From positions 1 to 64,000 of the forward strand of contig JAFQBD010000012.1 in assembly GCA_017416795.1 (NCBI GenBank): a stretch of DNA of 64,000 bases. The letters are read 5' to 3'. The DNA is from Bacillota bacterium (GTDB taxonomy: Bacteria; Bacillota; Clostridia; Peptostreptococcales; Anaerovoracaceae). Positions 1,098-29,440 of this stretch are shown in pieces. A program made the position numbers and the translations under genes. Below the pieces are notes generated by a model. That model worked only from the letters and a program-made list of their open reading frames with translations. It was not told the origin of the DNA and searched no databases. Within the stretch, counting starts at the first letter, position 1; each line of letters starts with the position of its first letter.

Positions 1098-2483
1098 GTG
1101 ACAGTGTTTAGAATGAGACGAAAGAAGAAAAATGTGATACAACTGGACAACCAGCCGTTGTTCTCAAATAAATTCCTGCTTAAGCTGCTGTGGCCGCTGC
1201 TCGTCGAGCAGTTTTTGCTGTTTGCCGTAGGGCTTATAGACTCTATGATGGTAGCCAGTGTAGGTGAAGCTGCCGTATCTGCAGTTTCACTGGTAGACTC
1301 TATCATCATACTTATGATAAATATCATGGCGGCGCTTGCTACAGGCGGTGCAGTAGTCGTAGGTCAGTATCTGGGACAGAAGAAGGATGAAGAAGCAAGG
1401 TCCGCATCAGATCAGCTGGTGCTTTCTGCGTTCCTGCTTTCTATGGTGATAGTCATCATCATGTACATATTCAAAAACGGCATAATGTCTTTAGTCTTCG
1501 GTGATATCGAAGCAGACGTAAGGCATTACTGTGATGTATATTATCTGATTGTGACTGCCTCTATCCCATTCATCGGCATATATAATGCCAGTGCTGCATT
1601 GTTCAGAAATATCGGTCGATCAAATACGACAATGAAGATATCTATCCTGATGAACATCATAAATGTTACGGGAAATGCTGTTTTGATTTTTGGCCTCGGA
1701 TGCGGAGTGGAAGGCGTTGCTATCCCGACTCTCGTTTCGAGAATAGTTGCTGCAGTCGCCATATATATTCTTCTGAGAAATCCTCAGCTGCAGGTGCATA
1801 TAAGCAAAAAGCCTGTACTTAAACCTAATTGGGGATATATAAGAAAGATCCTCAAGATAGGTGTACCGAACGGAGTAGAAAACAGCATGTTCCAGTTGGG
1901 TAAACTGATACTTCTCAGCCTTATTGCCACCTTCGGAACATCAGCCATAGCGGCAAACGCTGTAGGTAACGCTATAGCGATGGTAGGATGCCTTACCGGG
2001 ATGGCAATGAATCTTGCTGTAGTTCCTGTAATAAGCCGATGCGTAGGTGCGGGAGATTATCAGCAGGCAAGGTACTATACTCATAAGCTGATGAAATGGA
2101 CGTATGGATTCTTAGTAGTGGGAAGTTTGATCGTGTGGTTCTGCTTACCGCTGCTGCTGAAAATATATGGGCTCAGCGATGAAACTGCAGAATTAGCATT
2201 TGAGATCCTTACGATCAACTGCTTCAGCGTTATCATTATATGGCCGCTTTCCTTTACTCTGCCGAATATCCTCAGAGCAGCGGGAGATGTGACCTTTACG
2301 ATGATCGTATGCGTCGTTTCCATGTGGATATTCAGGATAGGGTGCGCATATTTCATGGGTCAATTCCTTGGCATGGGCCTGATAGGTGTATGGGTGGCAA
2401 TGATCATCGACTGGGCAGTGAGAACTGTGTTCTTTATAGCAAGATATAAGAGCGGCAAGTGGAAAAAGGGTGCGGTAGTTTAA
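1098..2483 (+). CDS. MATE family efflux transporter (first of two)
   Basis: Multidrug and toxic-compound extrusion antiporter that exports cationic compounds using a Na+ or H+ gradient. The protein is 461 residues, the usual size, with about 12 hydrophobic segments arranged as two six-helix bundles. The N-terminal half has the typical LLWPLLVEQFLLFAVGLIDS stretch and an Ala/Gly-rich ALATGGAVVVGQYLGQ segment. The start is uncertain: GTG at 1098, GTG at 1104 and ATG at 1113 are all possible and none has a strong ribosome-binding site. A second MATE gene follows at once, suggesting co-transcription. The substrate cannot be told from sequence. Confidence 0.9.
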   Translation: MTVFRMRRKKKNVIQLDNQPLFSNKFLLKLLWPLLVEQFLLFAVGLIDSMMVASVGEAAVSAVSLVDSIIILMINIMAALATGGAVVVGQYLGQKKDEEARSASDQLVLSAFLLSMVIVIIMYIFKNGIMSLVFGDIEADVRHYCDVYYLIVTASIPFIGIYNASAALFRNIGRSNTTMKISILMNIINVTGNAVLIFGLGCGVEGVAIPTLVSRIVAAVAIYILLRNPQLQVHISKKPVLKPNWGYIRKILKIGVPNGVENSMFQLGKLILLSLIATFGTSAIAANAVGNAIAMVGCLTGMAMNLAVVPVISRCVGAGDYQQARYYTHKLMKWTYGFLVVGSLIVWFCLPLLLKIYGLSDETAELAFEILTINCFSVIIIWPLSFTLPNILRAAGDVTFTMIVCVVSMWIFRIGCAYFMGQFLGMGLIGVWVAMIIDWAVRTVFFIARYKSGKWKKGAVV

Positions 2484-2504
2484 GTAGTGTTGACAAGGTG
2501 TCGT

Positions 2505-3851
2505 ATGAGCAATATTTATACAGAAGAAATAACTAGGAAAAATTTCATAAACTTCGTATGGCCATCTATCGTTATGATGCTTGTCATAGCTGTCAGATAT
2601 AACATAGACTCGATACTGGTCGCCAATATGCTGGGTGAAGTGCCACTGGCGGCAGTAGGAATAGCATATCCTGTGCAGGGGATGATGTGGGGCGTATCCG
2701 TAATGCTGGCATCGGGATCAAGTGCTCTAGTTGCCATAAGAATGGGTGAAGGCGATATGGATGGTGCAAACCGTGGGTTCAGCTTAGTATGCGTGTTATC
2801 AGTGATAATAGGATTCATCTTTCTGTTTGTTACACTCATTTTTATGGATCCTATAATAGGATTCCTCGGTGCAGAAGGCGAGCTGGCCTTTCATGTTGAA
2901 GAATTCCTTCGCATATTTGCATGGGCATTCCCTGCTGCTTTTTTAGGATTGATTTTTGAATACTACATAAGGGTAGATGGGAAACCGGGATTTACGCTTG
3001 TTTTGTATTTATCAGGTGCAGTGGCTCATATCATAGTTGCTGTAGTATTGATGGGAAAATACGATATGGGCATAGCAGGTGATGCTTGGGGGAATACAAT
3101 AGATTTATATGTCATGGTGATCGTTGGAGCATTGTATTTTATCTTCGCCAAGACTAAACTGAAACTTTGCAGATTCAAGATCGAATGGAAGTTCATAGGT
3201 CATAGCTTCTTTAACGGATCGTCTGAACTTGTAAGTGAATCGGCTGCAGGTATATGTACATTCTGTTTTAACTTTTTGATGCTCAGGATGGTTGGAGCAT
3301 CAGGAGTAGCAGCGGTCAATATAATATTGAATCTCCATTATTTCGTGATATCCATATTTATAGGTTACATAATGGGTATAGCTCCGCTTATAAGCTATTT
3401 CTATGGAGCTAAGGAATACAAAAAGATAGATAAGATAATAGGATATTCCAAAAAGTTTATCGTAGTTAGTTCCATAGTTTCAGCCGTTGTTTTCTTGTTG
3501 TTTGCAGGTCTGATCGTACAGATTTATGAAAGTCCTGGAAGTGAACTCTATGATATGTCAGTGGCAGGTGTCAGATGGATGGCTCCGGCATTGCTGCTGG
3601 GAGGTATCAATGTGTTCGCATCAGGCTTCTTCACTGCTTACGGCAATGGCGTAATATCTGCTGTCATATCTGCCTCCAGAGCATTGATAATGGTTATAAT
3701 CGGCATGTTCCTGCTGTCGTGGATATTCGGACTTAGCGGAATATGGATGACTCTTACATTCGCAGAATTGATGACTCTTGGACTTACATTCGGCATGTTC
3801 GGAAAATACAAGAGTAAATATAATTATAATTTCGGTATCGGCAGACTTTAG
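2505..3851 (+). CDS. MATE family efflux transporter (second of two)
   Basis: A second MATE-type antiporter of 448 residues with about 12 transmembrane segments. It is only distantly similar to the gene before it, so the pair may form a heteromeric or dual-specificity exporter or be two independent pumps. I chose ATG 2505 because AAGGTG lies at a proper distance in front; an in-frame GTG at 2487 has no ribosome-binding site. It starts 21 nt after the first MATE gene ends. A weak hairpin overlaps its stop codon (about 3839-3857) but lacks a good T-run. Substrate unknown. Confidence 0.9.
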   Translation: MSNIYTEEITRKNFINFVWPSIVMMLVIAVRYNIDSILVANMLGEVPLAAVGIAYPVQGMMWGVSVMLASGSSALVAIRMGEGDMDGANRGFSLVCVLSVIIGFIFLFVTLIFMDPIIGFLGAEGELAFHVEEFLRIFAWAFPAAFLGLIFEYYIRVDGKPGFTLVLYLSGAVAHIIVAVVLMGKYDMGIAGDAWGNTIDLYVMVIVGALYFIFAKTKLKLCRFKIEWKFIGHSFFNGSSELVSESAAGICTFCFNFLMLRMVGASGVAAVNIILNLHYFVISIFIGYIMGIAPLISYFYGAKEYKKIDKIIGYSKKFIVVSSIVSAVVFLLFAGLIVQIYESPGSELYDMSVAGVRWMAPALLLGGINVFASGFFTAYGNGVISAVISASRALIMVIIGMFLLSWIFGLSGIWMTLTFAELMTLGLTFGMFGKYKSKYNYNFGIGRL

Positions 3852-23131: not shown

Positions 23132-24433
23132 ATGGCAATTAAAATCTTAAAAGATAAATGTATCGGATGCGGTATCTGCTTCAAGTCATGTCCTGCAGAT
23201 GCTTTCGAATTCGAAGCATACGATGGAAATAAATTAGGTAAAGTAGCAAAGATCAACGCTAAGTGTACTTTCTGTAACCAGTGTCTGACTGCATGTAAGT
23301 TCGGCGCTATCGAAGAAGAAAAGATCGAAGTTGCAGATGATCTGGACGATTACAAGCACGTTTGGGTTTATGCAGAACAGAGAGACGGTAAGCTGATGAA
23401 CGTTGCTCTGGAACTGATCGGCGAAGGTTACAGACTGGCTAAGGAAATCAGTGAAGATACACAGGTTTGCGCAGTTCTGGTTGGTGACGGAATCGATCAT
23501 CTGGCTGAAGAATGTTTCGCATACGGAGCAGAAAAAGTTTACATGATCCAGGATCCACTGCTGAAGAACTTCACAACAGATGGATACGCTAAGGTTCTGG
23601 TAGACGCTTGCTACGAATACAAACCAGAAATCGTTATCTACGGTGCAACTCACATCGGTAGAGACCTGGCTCCAAGAGTAGCTGCTAGAATGAACACTGG
23701 TCTGACAGCTGACTGTACTAGACTGGACGTTAGAGTTTCAAGCTACATCGAATATGCTGATAAGAACACTACATTAGATACATCCACACTGGATCCTAAC
23801 GATCCATCAACAGGCATCAAGCAGACTAGACCTGCATTCGGTGGTAACCTGATGGCTACTATCATCTGCCCTAGAACTAGACCTCAGATGTCAACAGTAA
23901 GACCTGGCGTTATGCAGAAGAGAGAAAAGGTTGAAGGCGCAACTGGCGAAATCGTTAACGTTAAGCCTGCAATCACTGAAGCTGACATCAGAACTAAGAT
24001 CGTTGAAATCGTTAAGTCCGCTAAGGAACTCGTATCACTGACTGACGCTGATATCATCTGTTCAGGCGGAAGAGGTCTTGGCGATCCTTCAGGATTCGAA
24101 CTGATCAAGGAATTCGCTGACAAGGTTGGCGGAGTTGTTGGTTCATCAAGAGCAGCTGTAGACGCTGGTTGGATCGATCATTCACACCAGGTAGGTCAGA
24201 CAGGTACAACTGTTAAGCCTAAAATCTACTTTGCATGCGGTATCTCAGGCGCTATCCAGCACTTAGCAGGAATGCAGACATCAGACATCATCGTTGCTAT
24301 CAACAAGGATCCTGATGCTCCAATCTTCGAAGTTGCTGACTACGGAATCGTAGGCGACCTGTACAAGGTAATCCCAGAAATCATCGCTGAATGGGATAAC
24401 GCTGAAGCACTGTATGATGCATCAACTAAATAG
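23132..24433 (+). CDS. etfA: Electron transfer flavoprotein subunit alpha with N-terminal 2[4Fe-4S] ferredoxin domain
   Basis: Alpha subunit of Etf, 433 residues against about 320-340 for the usual form. The extra N-terminal 60 residues are a bacterial ferredoxin with two full clusters: Cys10-x2-Cys13-x2-Cys16-x3-Cys20 and Cys45-x2-Cys48-x2-Cys51-x3-Cys55. The C-terminal FAD domain is intact ([30 protein letters not shown]). This architecture is known from the caffeyl-CoA reductase CarE and lactate dehydrogenase LctC of acetogens, where it channels electrons between ferredoxin and the bifurcating flavin. It suggests that the operon couples enoyl-CoA reduction by NADH to ferredoxin reduction. 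Confidence 0.95.
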
Positions 24434-24507
24434 GGAGACCTAACCAAATTTGCAAAAAAACGCTCTCATTAGAGAGCGTTTTTTAATGCAAATTTTTGGT
24501 AGGTCCC
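24433..24507. repeat. Long nested inverted repeat after etfA
   Basis: The arms about 24433-24454 (AGACCTAACCAAATTTGCA) and 24487-24507 (TGCAAATTTTTGGTAGGTC) are complementary apart from small bulges and enclose the terminator hairpin, giving a potential stem of more than 30 bp. A second hairpin, GTTGC-GGAGC-TTT-GCTCC-GCAAC, lies at 24516-24542. Confidence 0.8.
24461..24484 (+). terminator. Intrinsic terminator after etfA
   Basis: CGCTCTC-ATTA-GAGAGCG stem flanked by A7 on the left and T6 on the right. It is the core of a larger inverted repeat described separately. Confidence 0.95.
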
Positions 24508-24562
24508 CCGTCAGAGTTGCAGGAGCTTTGCTCCGTGGCAACTTACGGCGCAGGAGATGACC

Positions 24563-25141
24563 CTACAGATACTCCTTAACCCTATACCAAGGGAATCCGA
24601 CTACATTGTCGTAGTCGCCTTCAAAGTGGTCGATGTATTTACTGAAAGTTCCCTGTATAGCGTATCCACCAGCCTTGTCATAAGGCTCGGAAGTCTTCAC
24701 ATAGGCGAGAAGCTCTTCTTCGGTATAATCCTTGAAATATACCGATGTCGTATCGCAGAAGCAAATTTTGAGCTTCTTAGAGGTGTCTATAATGGCAACA
24801 CCTGTCATTACCTGATGGTAGTTGTTACGCAGTTTGCTCAGCATACGATAGGCATCGTCCTGATCGACAGGTTTACCCATGATCTCATCACCATACACTA
24901 CGATAGTATCAGCTGCGATTATTACTGCGCCATCGTTGCTGTCAGAGCTTTCATCTGTACTGATCTGTTCTGCGATATAGGCAGCTTTCTTTAGTGCCAT
25001 AGCCATGGCAGCAGATTCACATGACATATTGATGAGTATTTCTTCATCTACATGTGCAGGTATTATTTCCGGTTCGTAACCATTGTTTTTCATCATCTCG
25101 ATTCGTCTCGGGGACGAAGAGGCAAGTATTATTCTTTTCAT
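24563..25141 (-). CDS. maf: Maf family nucleoside-triphosphate pyrophosphatase
   Basis: House-cleaning pyrophosphatase that hydrolyses non-canonical or pyrimidine nucleoside triphosphates, thought to prevent their incorporation and linked to septum inhibition in Bacillus. The 192-residue protein begins with the signature MKRIILASSSPRRIEMMK and contains IIAADTIVV with the metal-binding Asp, then ...YDKAGGYAIQG, all typical. No ribosome-binding site precedes ATG 25141, and a -10 box lies only 6 nt upstream, so translation may be leaderless. Its upstream side abuts an AT-rich island. Confidence 0.94.
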   Translation of the reverse strand: MKRIILASSSPRRIEMMKNNGYEPEIIPAHVDEEILINMSCESAAMAMALKKAAYIAEQISTDESSDSNDGAVIIAADTIVVYGDEIMGKPVDQDDAYRMLSKLRNNYHQVMTGVAIIDTSKKLKICFCDTTSVYFKDYTEEELLAYVKTSEPYDKAGGYAIQGTFSKYIDHFEGDYDNVVGFPWYRVKEYL

Positions 25142-25143
25142 GA

Positions 25144-25695
25144 TTTGAGTATAGCACTAAAGTTGTTTACAAATCAATGTTAATGAAATATGTGTTTTCA
25201 ATAAGTGATGATAACGTAGATTATAACGAAGCTATAGCGGCTAAAGACTATTTTTCGCAATACCATGAAGGGCTAAATAGAAGAGTAGAAGAGCCGATAA
25301 ACAGTAGGTTAAATTATGGATATGCTGTTGTGAGAAGTGCAATTGTCAGAAAACTAGTTGCGACAGGCTTTCATACAGCCTTAGGAATTCATCATGATAA
25401 TCAGTTAAATGCATTTAATTTAGCGGACGATTTAATTGAGCCATACCGCGCTATTGTAGATTTGGTAGTACATGAAAATGTGAGTTCTAGTATTCGATTG
25501 TCAAAAACAGAAAGAAGAGAACTGGCACATGTGTTACATAATGCTTGCAAAGTTGATGAAATGAAAGTAAATGTAATGGCATCCATTGATATTATGGTTG
25601 AGAGTCTAAAAAGAATAATCTTAGATAATTCATCAGAAAAGCTAAAATTACCACTAATTCTCCCTGTAGAGAGTTTGGAGGGAATAACAGAATGA
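25144..25695 (+). pseudogene. cas1: Truncated type II-like cas1 (C-terminal part only)
   Basis: The frame is open from 25144; the first ATG is 25177 (172 residues) and no ribosome-binding site precedes it. The sequence matches the C-terminal alpha-helical domain of type II CRISPR integrase Cas1: NEAIAAKDYF, INSRLNYGYAVVRSAIVRKL, ALGIHHDNQLNAFNLADD and LIEPYRAIVDL. The catalytic/metal residues are kept (Glu18, His72/His73, Asp84 and Asp85, counted from ATG 25177), but the N-terminal beta domain of about 120 residues is absent. The missing 5' end coincides with the maf promoter region. The stop overlaps a cas2-like start by ATGA. It is called a pseudogene because the protein is truncated, lacks a ribosome-binding site and has no cas9, intact cas2 or array nearby. 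Confidence 0.82.
25148..25177 (-). promoter_or_regulatory. Promoter for maf placed for a leaderless transcript
   Basis: Read on the minus strand, TTGATT (25172-25177) and TATACT (25148-25153) have an 18-bp spacer. Only six bases separate the -10 box from the maf ATG, so transcription should start at or next to the A of the start codon. Confidence 0.5.
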
Positions 25696-25760
25696 GACTA
25701 ATCGTTATACTTAGGGAATTACAACCTATACTCTGTTTTGCTTTATGGTATAATATATAA
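25692..25760 (+). pseudogene. 5' stub of cas2
   Basis: ATG 25692 overlaps the cas1 stop by 4 nt, as in intact type II operons, and the first residues MRLIV match the start of type II Cas2 proteins (MRLIV/MRLLV-x-FDLP). After about six codons the similarity ends and the frame stops at 25758-25760 after 22 residues. The rest of cas2 was apparently deleted. The evidence is short, so this depends on the cas1 context. Confidence 0.5.
25746..25754 (+). promoter_or_regulatory. Extended -10 promoter in the island
   Basis: TGGTATAAT ends 36 nt before the ATG at 25791. No good -35 is present. It lies within the cas2 stub, after its homology to Cas2 ends. Confidence 0.5.
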
Positions 25761-25790
25761 AAAGTGTCTTGGCGAGTAGGGGTATATAAT

Positions 25791-26063
25791 ATGAGAGTGC
25801 TAAAATCTAAAAAAACCGAGAATAACTATTATATAACTAAATATAAAATTATTGTCATGAATGGTTCTGAGTTAGTAACAATTATACGACTACCTAAGTC
25901 GAAGAGCATGAATACATGTGATATTGTCTTGCAATTTTGGGATCTTTACTATGAAGAAGACAATTTAATGGTGTTTATATATTATAGGAACAATACTATT
26001 TACAGAAGTGTCTTGAACGAGGAAACTTTTGAAATTGGAAATGAAAGAATAGAATCAAGATAA
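25791..26063 (+). CDS. Hypothetical protein, 90 residues
   Basis: Family not recognised. The protein is mixed charged and aromatic, with no signal peptide or membrane helix and a Tyr-rich centre (FWDLYYEEDNLMVFIYYRNN), suggesting a small beta-rich soluble domain. ATG 25791 is chosen because TAGGGGT lies about 8 nt ahead; an in-frame GTG at 25764 lacks such a site. It is followed after 17 nt by another unknown gene on the same strand. AT-rich codon use sets it apart from the core genes nearby. Confidence 0.5.
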   Translation: MRVLKSKKTENNYYITKYKIIVMNGSELVTIIRLPKSKSMNTCDIVLQFWDLYYEEDNLMVFIYYRNNTIYRSVLNEETFEIGNERIESR

Positions 26064-26080
26064 AGAGAAAGGGAAATAGA

Positions 26081-26440
26081 ATGGATTTGTCTAAAATCAC
26101 AAAACTTATACCAGAGTTTACATTGAAAGATTTTAATATGTTCGATATAGTCACTCATGTCGAATGGGACAAAGCATTAAACTTTGAAAGCGGTGTTGAA
26201 GAAGCTACTTTTTCCATGACGATGCAAAGCGACAAAGGCTATGAAGTGTCTTTGAAATTTATAAAGGCTTATTCGGTCGAAGTGGATTTATGTGGACAAA
26301 TCATGGGATTCTGTATAGAAGATAAGATAAAATATGGTTATGCTCCAGAGAACAGATATCATGTAAGCGATTATGAAAATGGCAGAATAACTCTAGATTG
26401 TGAAGATATATTGATTGAAAAATTTGCAAAAATATGGTGA
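26081..26440 (+). CDS. Hypothetical protein, 119 residues
   Basis: Family not recognised. An acidic soluble protein with alternating hydrophobic residues that suggests a beta-sheet fold (ATFSMTMQSDKGYEVSLKFI). No export signal. ATG 26081 follows AAAGGGAAATAGA, a fair ribosome-binding site. Small size, acidity and the company of other orphan genes are reminiscent of immunity proteins of contact-dependent or polymorphic toxins, but no toxin is seen here, so this is only a suggestion. Confidence 0.5.
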   Translation: MDLSKITKLIPEFTLKDFNMFDIVTHVEWDKALNFESGVEEATFSMTMQSDKGYEVSLKFIKAYSVEVDLCGQIMGFCIEDKIKYGYAPENRYHVSDYENGRITLDCEDILIEKFAKIW

Positions 26441-26473
26441 TTGCAGTAGCAATATTTTGTAAAGGAGGAATCA

Positions 26474-27004
26474 ATGATTGAATTAACTGAACAGCTCCAA
26501 CAAGTAGAAAAAGAATGTCGTGCAGATATTTCGTTAAGCGGATGGTTAGAGGCTATTGTTGATCATTACTATGTTGACAGCGAATGTGGGTGGATTGAAG
26601 AGTTTTATTGGCTATATATATATTATAATGCGGAGACAGATACAACTTACGAGTGTGTAGAGCAAGTTCCAGAAAACCTTGTAGCATATGTTTCAGCTGA
26701 TTACAGATGGTGTTTTGTGTTAAATAAACATCTTGAGAAATTCAAAAGAGACACAGCTGGTTATGGACTCCATTACATTCCAGTATCAGATTTTGGAGAA
26801 GAGATGTTTCAATGTTCCAATATCGATATGCTCCCTAAGGAATTTTCCAATATCGTTTGGATAGATGATGATTTTATGTATGATGAAAGCATCCCTTTTG
26901 ATTATGACAGTTTTTCTTTAATTGATGATAAAATCCCTTACCTAAATCCAAAACACTTTTCTGTTGGACAACTCGTAATGGTAATGGAATCTAATGACCA
27001 ATAG
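26474..27004 (+). CDS. Hypothetical protein, 176 residues
   Basis: Family not recognised. The protein is strongly acidic and rich in Trp, Tyr and Asp (WIEEFYWLYIYY near residue 41; IDDDFMYDES near residue 136), with no signal peptide or membrane helix. ATG 26474 has an excellent AAAGGAGGAATCA ribosome-binding site, which argues that the gene is expressed. It is the last gene of the AT-rich island, 33 nt upstream of an IS3-type terminal sequence. An immunity-protein role is possible but unsupported. Confidence 0.55.
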   Translation: MIELTEQLQQVEKECRADISLSGWLEAIVDHYYVDSECGWIEEFYWLYIYYNAETDTTYECVEQVPENLVAYVSADYRWCFVLNKHLEKFKRDTAGYGLHYIPVSDFGEEMFQCSNIDMLPKEFSNIVWIDDDFMYDESIPFDYDSFSLIDDKIPYLNPKHFSVGQLVMVMESNDQ

Positions 27005-27037
27005 TTATATAAATTTATAAAAGCAGGGAACTCAGTT

Positions 27038-27062
27038 TGAGGTGACCCCCAAAAGTTGGACT
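27038..27062. mobile_element. Solo terminus of an IS3/IS150-type insertion sequence
   Basis: TGACCCCCAAAAGTTGGAC at 27043-27061 is typical of the terminal inverted repeats of IS3-family (IS150-group) elements. The orientation implies the element body lay to the right, but no transposase and no matching second end are found before 27243, so this is a remnant. An imperfect inverted repeat (TTGTTG...CAACAA) at about 27082-27122 may belong to it. Confidence 0.6.
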
Positions 27063-27192
27063 TTAGCGGAGAGGAATTACTTTTGTTGTATGATCCGCTG
27101 AAAATGGTGCATCGTTCAACAAAATCCTTGCAATCATTCACATTAAATGTTAATATTCACTTGTGAGAAGTCAGAGTCGTATGACTTGAGAT

Positions 27193-27220
27193 TGCCACCC
27201 GATGGGGTGGCATTTTTTTT
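27193..27220 (+). terminator. Intrinsic terminator at the island's right border
   Basis: TGCCACCC-GATG-GGGTGGCA stem followed by T8. It ends 22 nt before the next gene. Confidence 0.93.
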
Positions 27221-27242
27221 AGATATGTAAGGGAGGTAATGT

Positions 27243-27665
27243 ATGAGCTTATATTGGCCTATAGTTCTTGCAGTATGTGCGGACATAGTATATCAGATAA
27301 GTGCCAAGTCGACACCGGAGACGCTGAACCCGTTCGCATCACTTACTATCACGTATTTGATAGGAGCAGCCATATCACTTGTCATTTTCTATATTACGAG
27401 TGCCGGCGGCAATTTTATTGCTGAGTTGAAACAGATAAACTGGACTGCATTCGCCCTTGGTCTTGCTATAGTAGGATTGGAAGCGGGAAGCATCTATATG
27501 TACAAGGTCGGCTGGAATATGAACACAGGTTATCTGGTGAAGTCGATAATACTTGCTTTAGCTCTCATTGTCGTTGGATATATCCTTTATAAGGAACAGG
27601 TGAGCGGTACTAAGATCGCAGGGATCGCTGTATGCCTTCTGGGCCTTTTCCTGATCAATAAATAA
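27243..27665 (+). CDS. Small EamA/DMT-superfamily membrane protein (half-size)
   Basis: Membrane protein of 140 residues with four predicted helices, equal to one EamA repeat instead of the usual two (about 290 residues, ten helices). Such half-size members work as homo- or heterodimers. The C-terminal YILYKEQVSGTKIAGIAVCLLGLFLIN stretch is typical of the family. ATG 27243 follows GGGAGGT. The substrate is unknown. It lies between the island and a two-component system with its own promoter. Confidence 0.8.
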   Translation: MSLYWPIVLAVCADIVYQISAKSTPETLNPFASLTITYLIGAAISLVIFYITSAGGNFIAELKQINWTAFALGLAIVGLEAGSIYMYKVGWNMNTGYLVKSIILALALIVVGYILYKEQVSGTKIAGIAVCLLGLFLINK

Positions 27666-27673
27666 GGATTTTT

Positions 27674-27703
27674 TTGCAGTAATTCATGCATATCGTGTAT
27701 AAT
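27674..27703 (+). promoter_or_regulatory. Promoter for the two-component system
   Basis: TTGCAG at 27674-27679 and TATAAT at 27698-27703 with 18 bp between, 20 nt before the response regulator start. Confidence 0.7.
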
Positions 27704-27722
27704 ATAGCCGGAGGATATTTTA

Positions 27723-28397
27723 ATGGCAAAGATACTGATAGCTGAAGACAATGTCAGCCTGAGACAGCTGATGAAAATACATCTTAAAAGAGCAGGATAT
27801 ACCGTTTATGAAGCAGCGGATGGTTCAGATGCGCTGGAAGTAATGGATCATAATCATGTAGATCTTATAATCGCAGATATCATGATGCCGGTAATGGATG
27901 GATATCAGCTGATAAAAGAAATAAGAGATGCAGGACTTGATACTCCTGTTTTGATAGTGACTTCCAAGGATAGACTTGAAGATAAGAGGATAGGCTTCAA
28001 GTCAGGTGCCGATGATTATATGACGAAACCCATCGATATGGAAGAGATGCTGCTGAGAGTGGAGGCAATGCTGAGGCGCTGCAGGATCGCGGACTCTAAG
28101 CGACTTACAGTTGGAAATGTGAGACTTGACCTCAACTCCCTTACCGTTCAGTCAGAAGAGCGTGAGATAGTCCTGAGACAAAAAGAGTTCCTTCTTCTGG
28201 AAAGGCTTCTGGCTTCGCCGAAGAAGATATTCACGAGGCAGGCTCTGATGGATGAGATATGGGGATATGACAGCAACTCTACACCTCGAACAGTCGATGC
28301 TCATATCAAGTCGCTGAGGGCTAAGCTGAAAGATATAGATGATTTCAGCATCGAGACCATAAGAGGACTTGGATACAAGGCGGTGATCCATAAATGA
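27723..28397 (+). CDS. OmpR/PhoB-family response regulator
   Basis: DNA-binding response regulator of 224 residues. The receiver domain (1-120) has the acidic pair near the N-terminus (AEDN), the phosphoacceptor Asp in IADIMMPVMDG near residue 52, and Lys in MTKPID. The C-terminal winged helix (130-224) contains LRQKEFLLLERLLASPKKIF and the recognition segment RTVDAHIKSLRAKL. It overlaps the histidine kinase gene by ATGA. Its targets cannot be told. Confidence 0.95.
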   Translation: MAKILIAEDNVSLRQLMKIHLKRAGYTVYEAADGSDALEVMDHNHVDLIIADIMMPVMDGYQLIKEIRDAGLDTPVLIVTSKDRLEDKRIGFKSGADDYMTKPIDMEEMLLRVEAMLRRCRIADSKRLTVGNVRLDLNSLTVQSEEREIVLRQKEFLLLERLLASPKKIFTRQALMDEIWGYDSNSTPRTVDAHIKSLRAKLKDIDDFSIETIRGLGYKAVIHK

Positions 28398-29440
28398 GGA
28401 AATTCAGGTCAAAGCTGACAGCAGCGATGATCATTTTAGTAGTTGTAACATCATTCCTTTCGGTGCTTTTCGCCATACTTACCGTCAACGGTAAGTTCCT
28501 GGAAAGACCGGAGATGCGTCACGTGATGTTCGGTCTTGCGGCAGGAGATGTTATACTGCTGATCATCCTTATAACTATGATAGCCATAGGGTTCATCCTC
28601 GTAATGAGATCGATCATGAAACCGATACTTGAGCTGGATAAAGCCGTAAGCAAAGTCACAGCCGGAGATTATAATGTCAAGGTCGATACGTATAATAAGG
28701 CAGAGGCGATAGTTGACCTTCTTGATAACTTCAATACGATGGTGGAACAGCTGAGGAATAATGAATACTTGCATAAAGACTTCAGCTCAAACATTTCCCA
28801 TGAGTTCAAAACGCCGCTGGCTATAATAAAGGGATATGCAGATCTTCTCGAAGAAGGCAATCTGACTGAAGAAGAACAGCGTAATTATGCTCAATACATA
28901 TCAAGGGAATCTAAGAGACTTTCGACGCTTACAGCTAATCTTCTCAGCCTCAGCAGTCTGGATTACGATAAGCTTCACGGCAGGAAGACAAAGATCTCCG
29001 TAGATGAACAGATAAGACAGGCTGTCCTAAATATGGAAGCTAAATGGCTTGAAAAGAATATAGACATAGATATCGAGCTTAACGAAGTATATTTCACAGG
29101 GGAAGAAGAACTGATAAATCAAGTATGGTTCAACCTGCTTGATAATGCCATAAAGTTTACTGATGAAGGCGGCAGGATATCTGTAAGTGCCGATAAACAT
29201 CACGAGGATATAATCGTAAGGATCGAAGATACCGGTGTAGGCATGGATGAAAAAACGCTGGAACATATATACGAACAGTTTTACAGAGGTGATACAGCCA
29301 AAAGATACGAAGGGACTGGCCTGGGACTGTCTTTAGTACAGCGTATCATACATCTTCATGACGGGAAGATAAAAGCTGACAGTAAGCCGGGAGAAGGAAC
29401 TTGCTTCACTGTGATCCTTCCTATCAAAACTCATAAATAA
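28394..29440 (+). CDS. Sensor histidine kinase with minimal extracellular loop
   Basis: HAMP-HisKA-HATPase kinase of 348 residues, partner of the response regulator just upstream. Two transmembrane helices (about 8-32 and 48-72) are separated by only some 15-20 extracellular residues, so it senses within the membrane or through a partner protein. A HAMP linker follows, then the phosphoacceptor His in FSSNISHEFKTPLAIIKGY, and the ATP-binding N, G1 and G2 boxes (NLLDNAIKF, EDTGVGMDE, GTGLGLSLV). No ABC transporter adjoins it, unlike many such short-loop kinases. Confidence 0.94.
   Translation: MRKFRSKLTAAMIILVVVTSFLSVLFAILTVNGKFLERPEMRHVMFGLAAGDVILLIILITMIAIGFILVMRSIMKPILELDKAVSKVTAGDYNVKVDTYNKAEAIVDLLDNFNTMVEQLRNNEYLHKDFSSNISHEFKTPLAIIKGYADLLEEGNLTEEEQRNYAQYISRESKRLSTLTANLLSLSSLDYDKLHGRKTKISVDEQIRQAVLNMEAKWLEKNIDIDIELNEVYFTGEEELINQVWFNLLDNAIKFTDEGGRISVSADKHHEDIIVRIEDTGVGMDEKTLEHIYEQFYRGDTAKRYEGTGLGLSLVQRIIHLHDGKIKADSKPGEGTCFTVILPIKTHK

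Follow-up and report, generated by a model that had tools for sequence, protein, structure and literature searches.

A truncated cas1–cas2 relic in a clostridial genome, probably derived from Cas1–Cas2 arrays proposed to capture gene-length DNA

In the window (the whole stretch of DNA analysed, 64,000 nucleotides in length), a truncated cas1 gene and a cas2 stub lie between maf (24563-25141, minus strand) and the gene for an EamA-like transporter (27243); the features are listed in Table 1. The protein search proposed in the original prediction was performed with the 172-residue product of the cas1 fragment. In the profile search, it matched TIGR03639, the type II Cas1 family (E-value 1.9e-39; 135.7 bits; cut-off 120), which rules out chance similarity, and PF01867 (1e-13; profile positions 155-253 of 283). 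The N-terminal ~128 codons are missing as compared with the intact relatives (301 aa). Since the relatives match residues 2-172, a native short Cas1 family was suspected, and was ruled out by their frames of 301 aa. The active-site residues E147, H202, and E217 (numbering of L018, an intact relative whose Cas1 scored 240.7 bits against TIGR03639, with the cut-off at 120) are present in the fragment and in all aligned members. The stub overlaps with cas1 by ATGA at 25692-25695, and nucleotide similarity to the intact cas1-cas2 stops at 25714, leaving ~7 cas2 codons. In the 1.94-Mb genome, the fragment is the sole Cas1 match, and a search for Cas9 found none. The prediction of a relic with a type II-like, N-terminally truncated Cas1, preserved catalytic residues, and a cas2 stub joined by ATGA was thus borne out.

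Table 1. Positions of the relic and its surroundings in the window, and of the related array on a C. coli plasmid
Feature	Location	Strand	Remarks
Whole insertion (~1.93 kb)	window 25182..27113		compared with the empty site CAATGTTCAACAAAA in the sister species G032
cas1 C-terminal fragment, 172 aa	window 25177..25695	+	match to TIGR03639; frame open from 25144
cas2 stub	window 25692..25760	+	22-codon frame; start MRLIVIL corresponds to the Cas2 start; sequence MRLIVILRELQPILCFALWYNI
Three small ORFs (25764-26063, 26081-26440, 26474-27004)	window 25764..27004	+	follow the cas2 stub and precede the 36-nt repeat
End (~47 bp) of a presumed IS3-like insertion sequence, TGAGGTGACCCCCAAAAGTTGGAC...	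window 27038..27084		abuts the 36-nt repeat
Surviving 36-nt array repeat GTTGTATGATCCGCTGAAAATGGTGCATCGTTCAAC	window 27085..27120	+	4 mismatches to GTTGAATGACCCGCCAAAAATGGTGCATCGTTCAAC, the repeat of the intact relatives
Array on C. coli plasmid p13786 (L127)	NZ_OQ553946.1, 12013-15306		adjoins tet(O); annotated as CRISPR

The edges of the insertion were assigned by comparison with the sister species G032, in which the site is empty: positions 1-1363 of its locus L119 correspond to 23819-25181 of the window (95%), and positions 1361-3246 correspond to 27114-28999 (93%). Microhomologies of 3 bp (GTT) and ~11 bp (GTTCAACAAAA) were found at the edges. As G027, which is more distant than G032, is also without the insert, the difference is most simply explained by an insertion in the lineage of the window. 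The comparison of the maf locus in a sister species, proposed as a way to the intact locus, therefore gave joined flanks and no intact locus. The relic had been thought to extend to 25760, which is too short by the distance to the downstream edge given in Table 1, and to have lost its N-terminal domain where the maf promoter begins; the loss was confirmed, and the 5' edge was found to be a junction with host DNA at ~25178-25182, with the ATG at 25177 lying in the host flank and present in the empty site of G032.

The statement that no array is seen nearby did not hold, since a diverged 36-nt repeat lies at the downstream end of the insertion. This is the only repeat match in the genome (3 mismatches to the degenerate pattern; no match with the reversed control pattern). 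Judging from their positions, the cas1 fragment and this repeat presumably belong together. The three small ORFs had no convincing match in Pfam and none in NCBIfam or PADLOC, nor had the last two, for which PHROGs was also searched, any match there; they are putative captured cargo by position, as in the intact arrays. The ~47 bp next to the repeat, which we take to be the end of an IS3-like element on the basis of the terminal motif, occur in five further copies in the genome, running into one common longer sequence, and are shared with several other contigs. This element was probably the agent of an internal deletion, by which the 5' half of cas1 and nearly all of cas2 would have been lost, along with the leader and the first repeat; as an alternative or additional step, an already broken fragment may have been inserted at the GTTCAAC site.

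Six of the 101 family-invariant Cas1 sites are changed in the fragment, and 1-10 in the intact members when these were left out in turn. Because the fragment is as conserved as the intact members, the break is probably recent, and the sequence fits the recent loss originally suggested. The other suggestion, that the truncated Cas1 is kept as a small working integrase, would agree with the open frame, the retained active-site residues, and the constrained substitutions; we regard it as highly improbable, because the N-terminal domain and Cas2 are lost, the start codon is borrowed from the host flank, and a single repeat is left in the genome. The copy in the window is dead: the N-terminal half of Cas1 and almost the whole of Cas2 are missing from it, and so are the leader and the first repeat. 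The point of truncation (codons ~126-128) is common to the window and the C. coli plasmid described below, which are two cases only, and N-terminal losses are over-represented among our loci because the C-terminal half of Cas1 was the search query. In locus L147 (134-234, minus strand), the first ~22 codons of Cas1 run straight into a repeat, with a CTTGAA-like microhomology, an arrangement that mirrors the truncation in the window.

The search with the Cas1 fragment yielded ~25 loci of Clostridia at 46-77% identity and, beyond these, many Cas9-linked loci at 30-40%; most of the loci studied come from MAG assemblies. The gene order observed at the intact loci is cas1 (~301 aa), cas2 (101 aa) with the same ATGA overlap as in the window, a leader of ~65 nt, and 36-nt repeats, which follow directly after cas2 on the same strand and are near-identical within each locus. 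The spacers (n = 51) range from 68 to 3,267 bp with a median of 428; every one is long, and none is ~30 bp. In these loci, the repeats start at +307 to +400 after cas1, their period is 104-3,303 bp, and there is no linked Cas9, whereas in the Cas9-linked controls, obtained with the same query, an ORF of the size of Cas9 lies ~3 kb upstream of cas1, and the repeats have a 66-bp period from about +400. Cas9 was absent altogether in 12 of the 16 genomes searched and located on another contig in two, in which its help in trans is thus possible. As for a Cas9 further upstream, the largest ORFs were DnaE (L024) and Clp ATPase (L013), and those of L023, L010, and L022 had no NCBIfam match; this candidate was rejected. 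The scan of L018, L022, L121, and L122 with the Rfam models gave no CRISPR or tracrRNA match, and a known RNA family in the repeat was rejected as well. A skipping-rope RNA (RF02924) is found inside a captured spacer (L022, 9130-9211).

These data bear on the original view that the window holds what is left of an ordinary type II CRISPR-Cas9 locus after the loss of cas9 and the array. Its Cas1 does belong to the type II family, and the truncation could be ordinary decay; even so, we find this origin improbable, since cas9 is not linked to the loci of the closest intact relatives and their spacers are far from 30 bp, and since their clade excludes all Cas9-linked Cas1s. In the Cas1 tree, the 29 long-spacer Cas1s formed one clade (SH-aLRT 100) apart from all 56 Cas9-linked controls. 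Of the type II characters, the Cas1 match was found, and Cas9 (in the genome of the window or linked within the clade) and ~30-bp spacers were not. The intact relatives share with the type II (II-C-like) adaptation module the TIGR03639 Cas1 with Cas2, the gene order, the leader followed by a 36-nt repeat, and the repeat duplication; they differ from it in the missing link to Cas9, the spacer length, the ILS-PT motif of Cas2, and the TNN-3' spacer ends (see below). The features of CRISPR-type adaptation (Cas1 active site, Cas2, leader-repeat, and duplicated repeats) are present in these relatives, not in the relic of the window.

Two genomes of the window's own genus, G003 and G024, have Cas1s with ~47% identity and different 36-nt repeats, GTTTGACGAAGGGTAGAAAATAGGAGGTCGTCAAAC (6 copies) and GTTATAATAAGAGATGAAAAGGGAAGATAGTGTAAC (7 copies), with only long spacers; their loci are an independent replication of the long-spacer arrays within the genus. 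The repeat sequence shifts together with the Cas1 clade. The conserved 21-nt half-repeat was detected in 7 of 350 genomes of the family, and the reversed control pattern in none. Single 36-nt repeats away from arrays were observed at L190-L193 (G360), L194, L148, and L149 and in the window, some of them mid-contig; these could be remnants or off-target insertions. Two loci of G361 (L216 and L217) contain more long-spacer repeats of this kind but have no cas1-cas2 in the vicinity, in which they resemble secondary CRISPR arrays. Phage or viral carriage of the element was considered and set aside: no phage record with the element was found, and only two IMG/VR contigs had one repeat each.

Evidence of capture came from the spacers themselves. 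In L122 (G024), spacer 3 (253 bp) fits exactly between its repeats and has an identical counterpart inside a prophage tail gene cluster on another contig, and spacer 1 (359 bp) is an internal stretch of an S8-protease-like gene, of which the flanks continue on both sides (the source of spacer 1 was reconstructed across two contig ends, and both protein names were assigned by reading the sequence). The spacers are thus exact copies of sources that are themselves intact and carry no repeat. Spacer 3 spans a gene boundary of the prophage, and spacer 1 lies in antisense orientation relative to its gene; with one copy sense and the other antisense, the capture is blind. Only these two spacers had an exact source in their own genome, and for the others the search for a source ended at best with a partial match or with a sequence shared with another genome. 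No consistent flank that might serve as a PAM was seen at the two sources. In addition, an empty and occupied pair was observed: L009 (leader-repeat-CAAATTATACCCTCTCCCT) and L016 (repeat-2,697 bp-repeat-same 19 nt) share 99.2% identity over the stretch that begins with cas1 and includes the first repeat, and this pair supports capture with duplication of the repeat.

The spacer ends have a symmetric signature. At the third position from the 5' end, 32 of 51 spacers have A (p = 7e-6), and at the third position from the 3' end, 37 of 51 have T (p = 1e-10), so that both 3' ends read TNN-3'; the signature is absent in 727 Cas9-linked control spacers, and eight further spacers, a small set, agree with it (10 of 16 ends, p = 0.009). 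Symmetric ends of this kind would be expected from a Cas1–Cas2 integrase that acts on both ends. Among intact members, cas1 is under purifying selection where dN/dS was calculable (~0.02-0.08). The first motif of Cas2 reads ILS-PT in place of the FFDLP of Cas9-linked Cas2 in most clade members, with loss of the Asp, which is kept in L028 and L121; one might speculate that this change is the seat of the lost size limit. Nested arrays, which would bear on leader-end polarity, were not found among the loci analysed.

The repeats might instead be sites at which a different enzyme acts (the carrier's serine recombinase, or an IS), or the long spacers might be insertions into an old CRISPR array. 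Several near-identical elements (L009-L019) do have a serine recombinase and a Mob_Pre relaxase, together with an HTH protein, conserved upstream of cas1. These genes are missing in the other lineages, in which cas1-cas2-leader-repeat is the constant; moreover, no spacer has the short length expected of an old array, the repeat sequence varies with the Cas1 clade, and the spacer end signature is symmetric, all of which makes this explanation improbable, too. By gene position, cas1-cas2 holds the place of the integrase in every lineage, and the spacers are bounded solely by the 36-nt repeat. We infer that Cas1–Cas2 is the inserting enzyme and that insertion is leader-proximal. The near-identical elements L009-L019 also resemble an integrative mobilizable element common to Flavonifractor, Fusibacillus, and other genera.

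The cargo of the arrays includes APH with GNAT, an ABC-F-like protein, chemotaxis receptors, a member of the pyridoxamine-oxidase family, a HicB-like antitoxin, an esterase, HAAS with DUF4097, and a phage capsid fragment. Defence genes as cargo were set aside, since PADLOC gave no match for the ten proteins submitted. The longest ORFs of the spacers read with the leader, pointing away from it, in 25 cases and against it in 6 (p = 0.0009), and the leader of L018 contains a promoter with 12 of 12 consensus positions (TTGACA-18-TATAAT). From this bias and the perfect -35/-10 pair, the captured cargo is probably expressed from the leader promoter, and expression of the cargo would be the selected benefit. 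A different reading of the same capture is that the arrays serve as a nucleic-acid memory, giving long RNAs against phages or plasmids with the help of host RNases, and are not an expression platform. Blind sampling of fragments, as in L122, and the absence of a complete ORF of at least 60 aa in 20 of 51 spacers are in its favour; the orientation bias, the resistance-gene and whole-gene cargo, and the lack of a linked effector argue against it, and we hold it to be rather unlikely.

Resistance cargo was found on the conjugative, pTet-type C. coli plasmid p13786, in which a truncated cas1, an intact cas2, the leader, and a repeat are followed by GNAT and aph(2'')-Ii (1,458 bp), a second repeat, and the aph(3')-IIIa region. 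Judged from its placement between two repeats, aph(2'')-Ii is a captured unit. The sequence after the last repeat of L018 (a MAG with the sample name 'Lapin') is the same as that after the array of p13786. The depositors of the plasmid (2024) noted cas1 and cas2 and discussed them as CRISPR immunity (PMC10800408).

Taken as a whole, the window very probably contains a dead fragment of a Cas1–Cas2 array for the capture of long DNA, integron-like in effect, with the function deduced from comparison of sequences. The wider proposal, which we consider likely, is that an effector-less Cas1–Cas2 clade widespread in Clostridia captures gene-length DNA blindly into leader-driven arrays, an integron made of CRISPR parts that accepts any DNA as a cassette and is already moving resistance genes into Campylobacter. 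In the proposed mechanism, Cas1–Cas2 would take free double-stranded DNA fragments, as in CRISPR adaptation, from host genes, prophages, and mobile elements; each of the two 3'-OH ends of the fragment would be joined to one edge of the leader-proximal repeat, which would thereby be duplicated. With the ~30-bp size limit gone and no Cas9 linked, fragments of ~70-3,300 bp would be stored whole. The leader promoter would read into the array, so that ORFs captured in the right orientation could be expressed, and the net effect would be integron-like.

With integrons (IntI, attI/attC cassettes), these arrays have in common a series of gene-sized cargo downstream of a promoter, resistance genes, and mobile carriers. 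Integrons use a tyrosine recombinase, whereas here Cas1–Cas2 is present, attC is not, and the repeat is part of the platform and becomes duplicated when cargo is inserted, so that any DNA fragment can be cargo. Casposons, the Cas1-solo group 2 (PMC4046053), are similar in that a Cas1 inserts long DNA in a role other than CRISPR immunity. In contrast to casposons, no PolB was found in the loci examined (the upstream genes of L018 are those for the serine recombinase, Mob_Pre, and the HTH protein, and the polymerase of L024 is DnaE), Cas2 is present, encoded after cas1, the captured DNA is without terminal inverted repeats, and Cas1 groups with the type II Cas1s. In the open full-text literature searched (no preprints and few subscription journals), there was no description of such long-spacer Cas1–Cas2 arrays, and this kind of element from gut bacteria is apparently undescribed within it.

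CRISPR adaptation in textbooks is limited to spacers of ~30 bp that feed an RNA-guided nuclease. If our interpretation is true, a Cas1–Cas2 that naturally stores DNA of up to 3.3 kb would mean that integrons can be built by a second route unrelated to the first; it would open testable questions on how Cas1–Cas2 measures length, and may be useful as a tool to record or insert long DNA. The C. coli plasmid, with a resistance gene as cargo, gives such capture arrays medical relevance.
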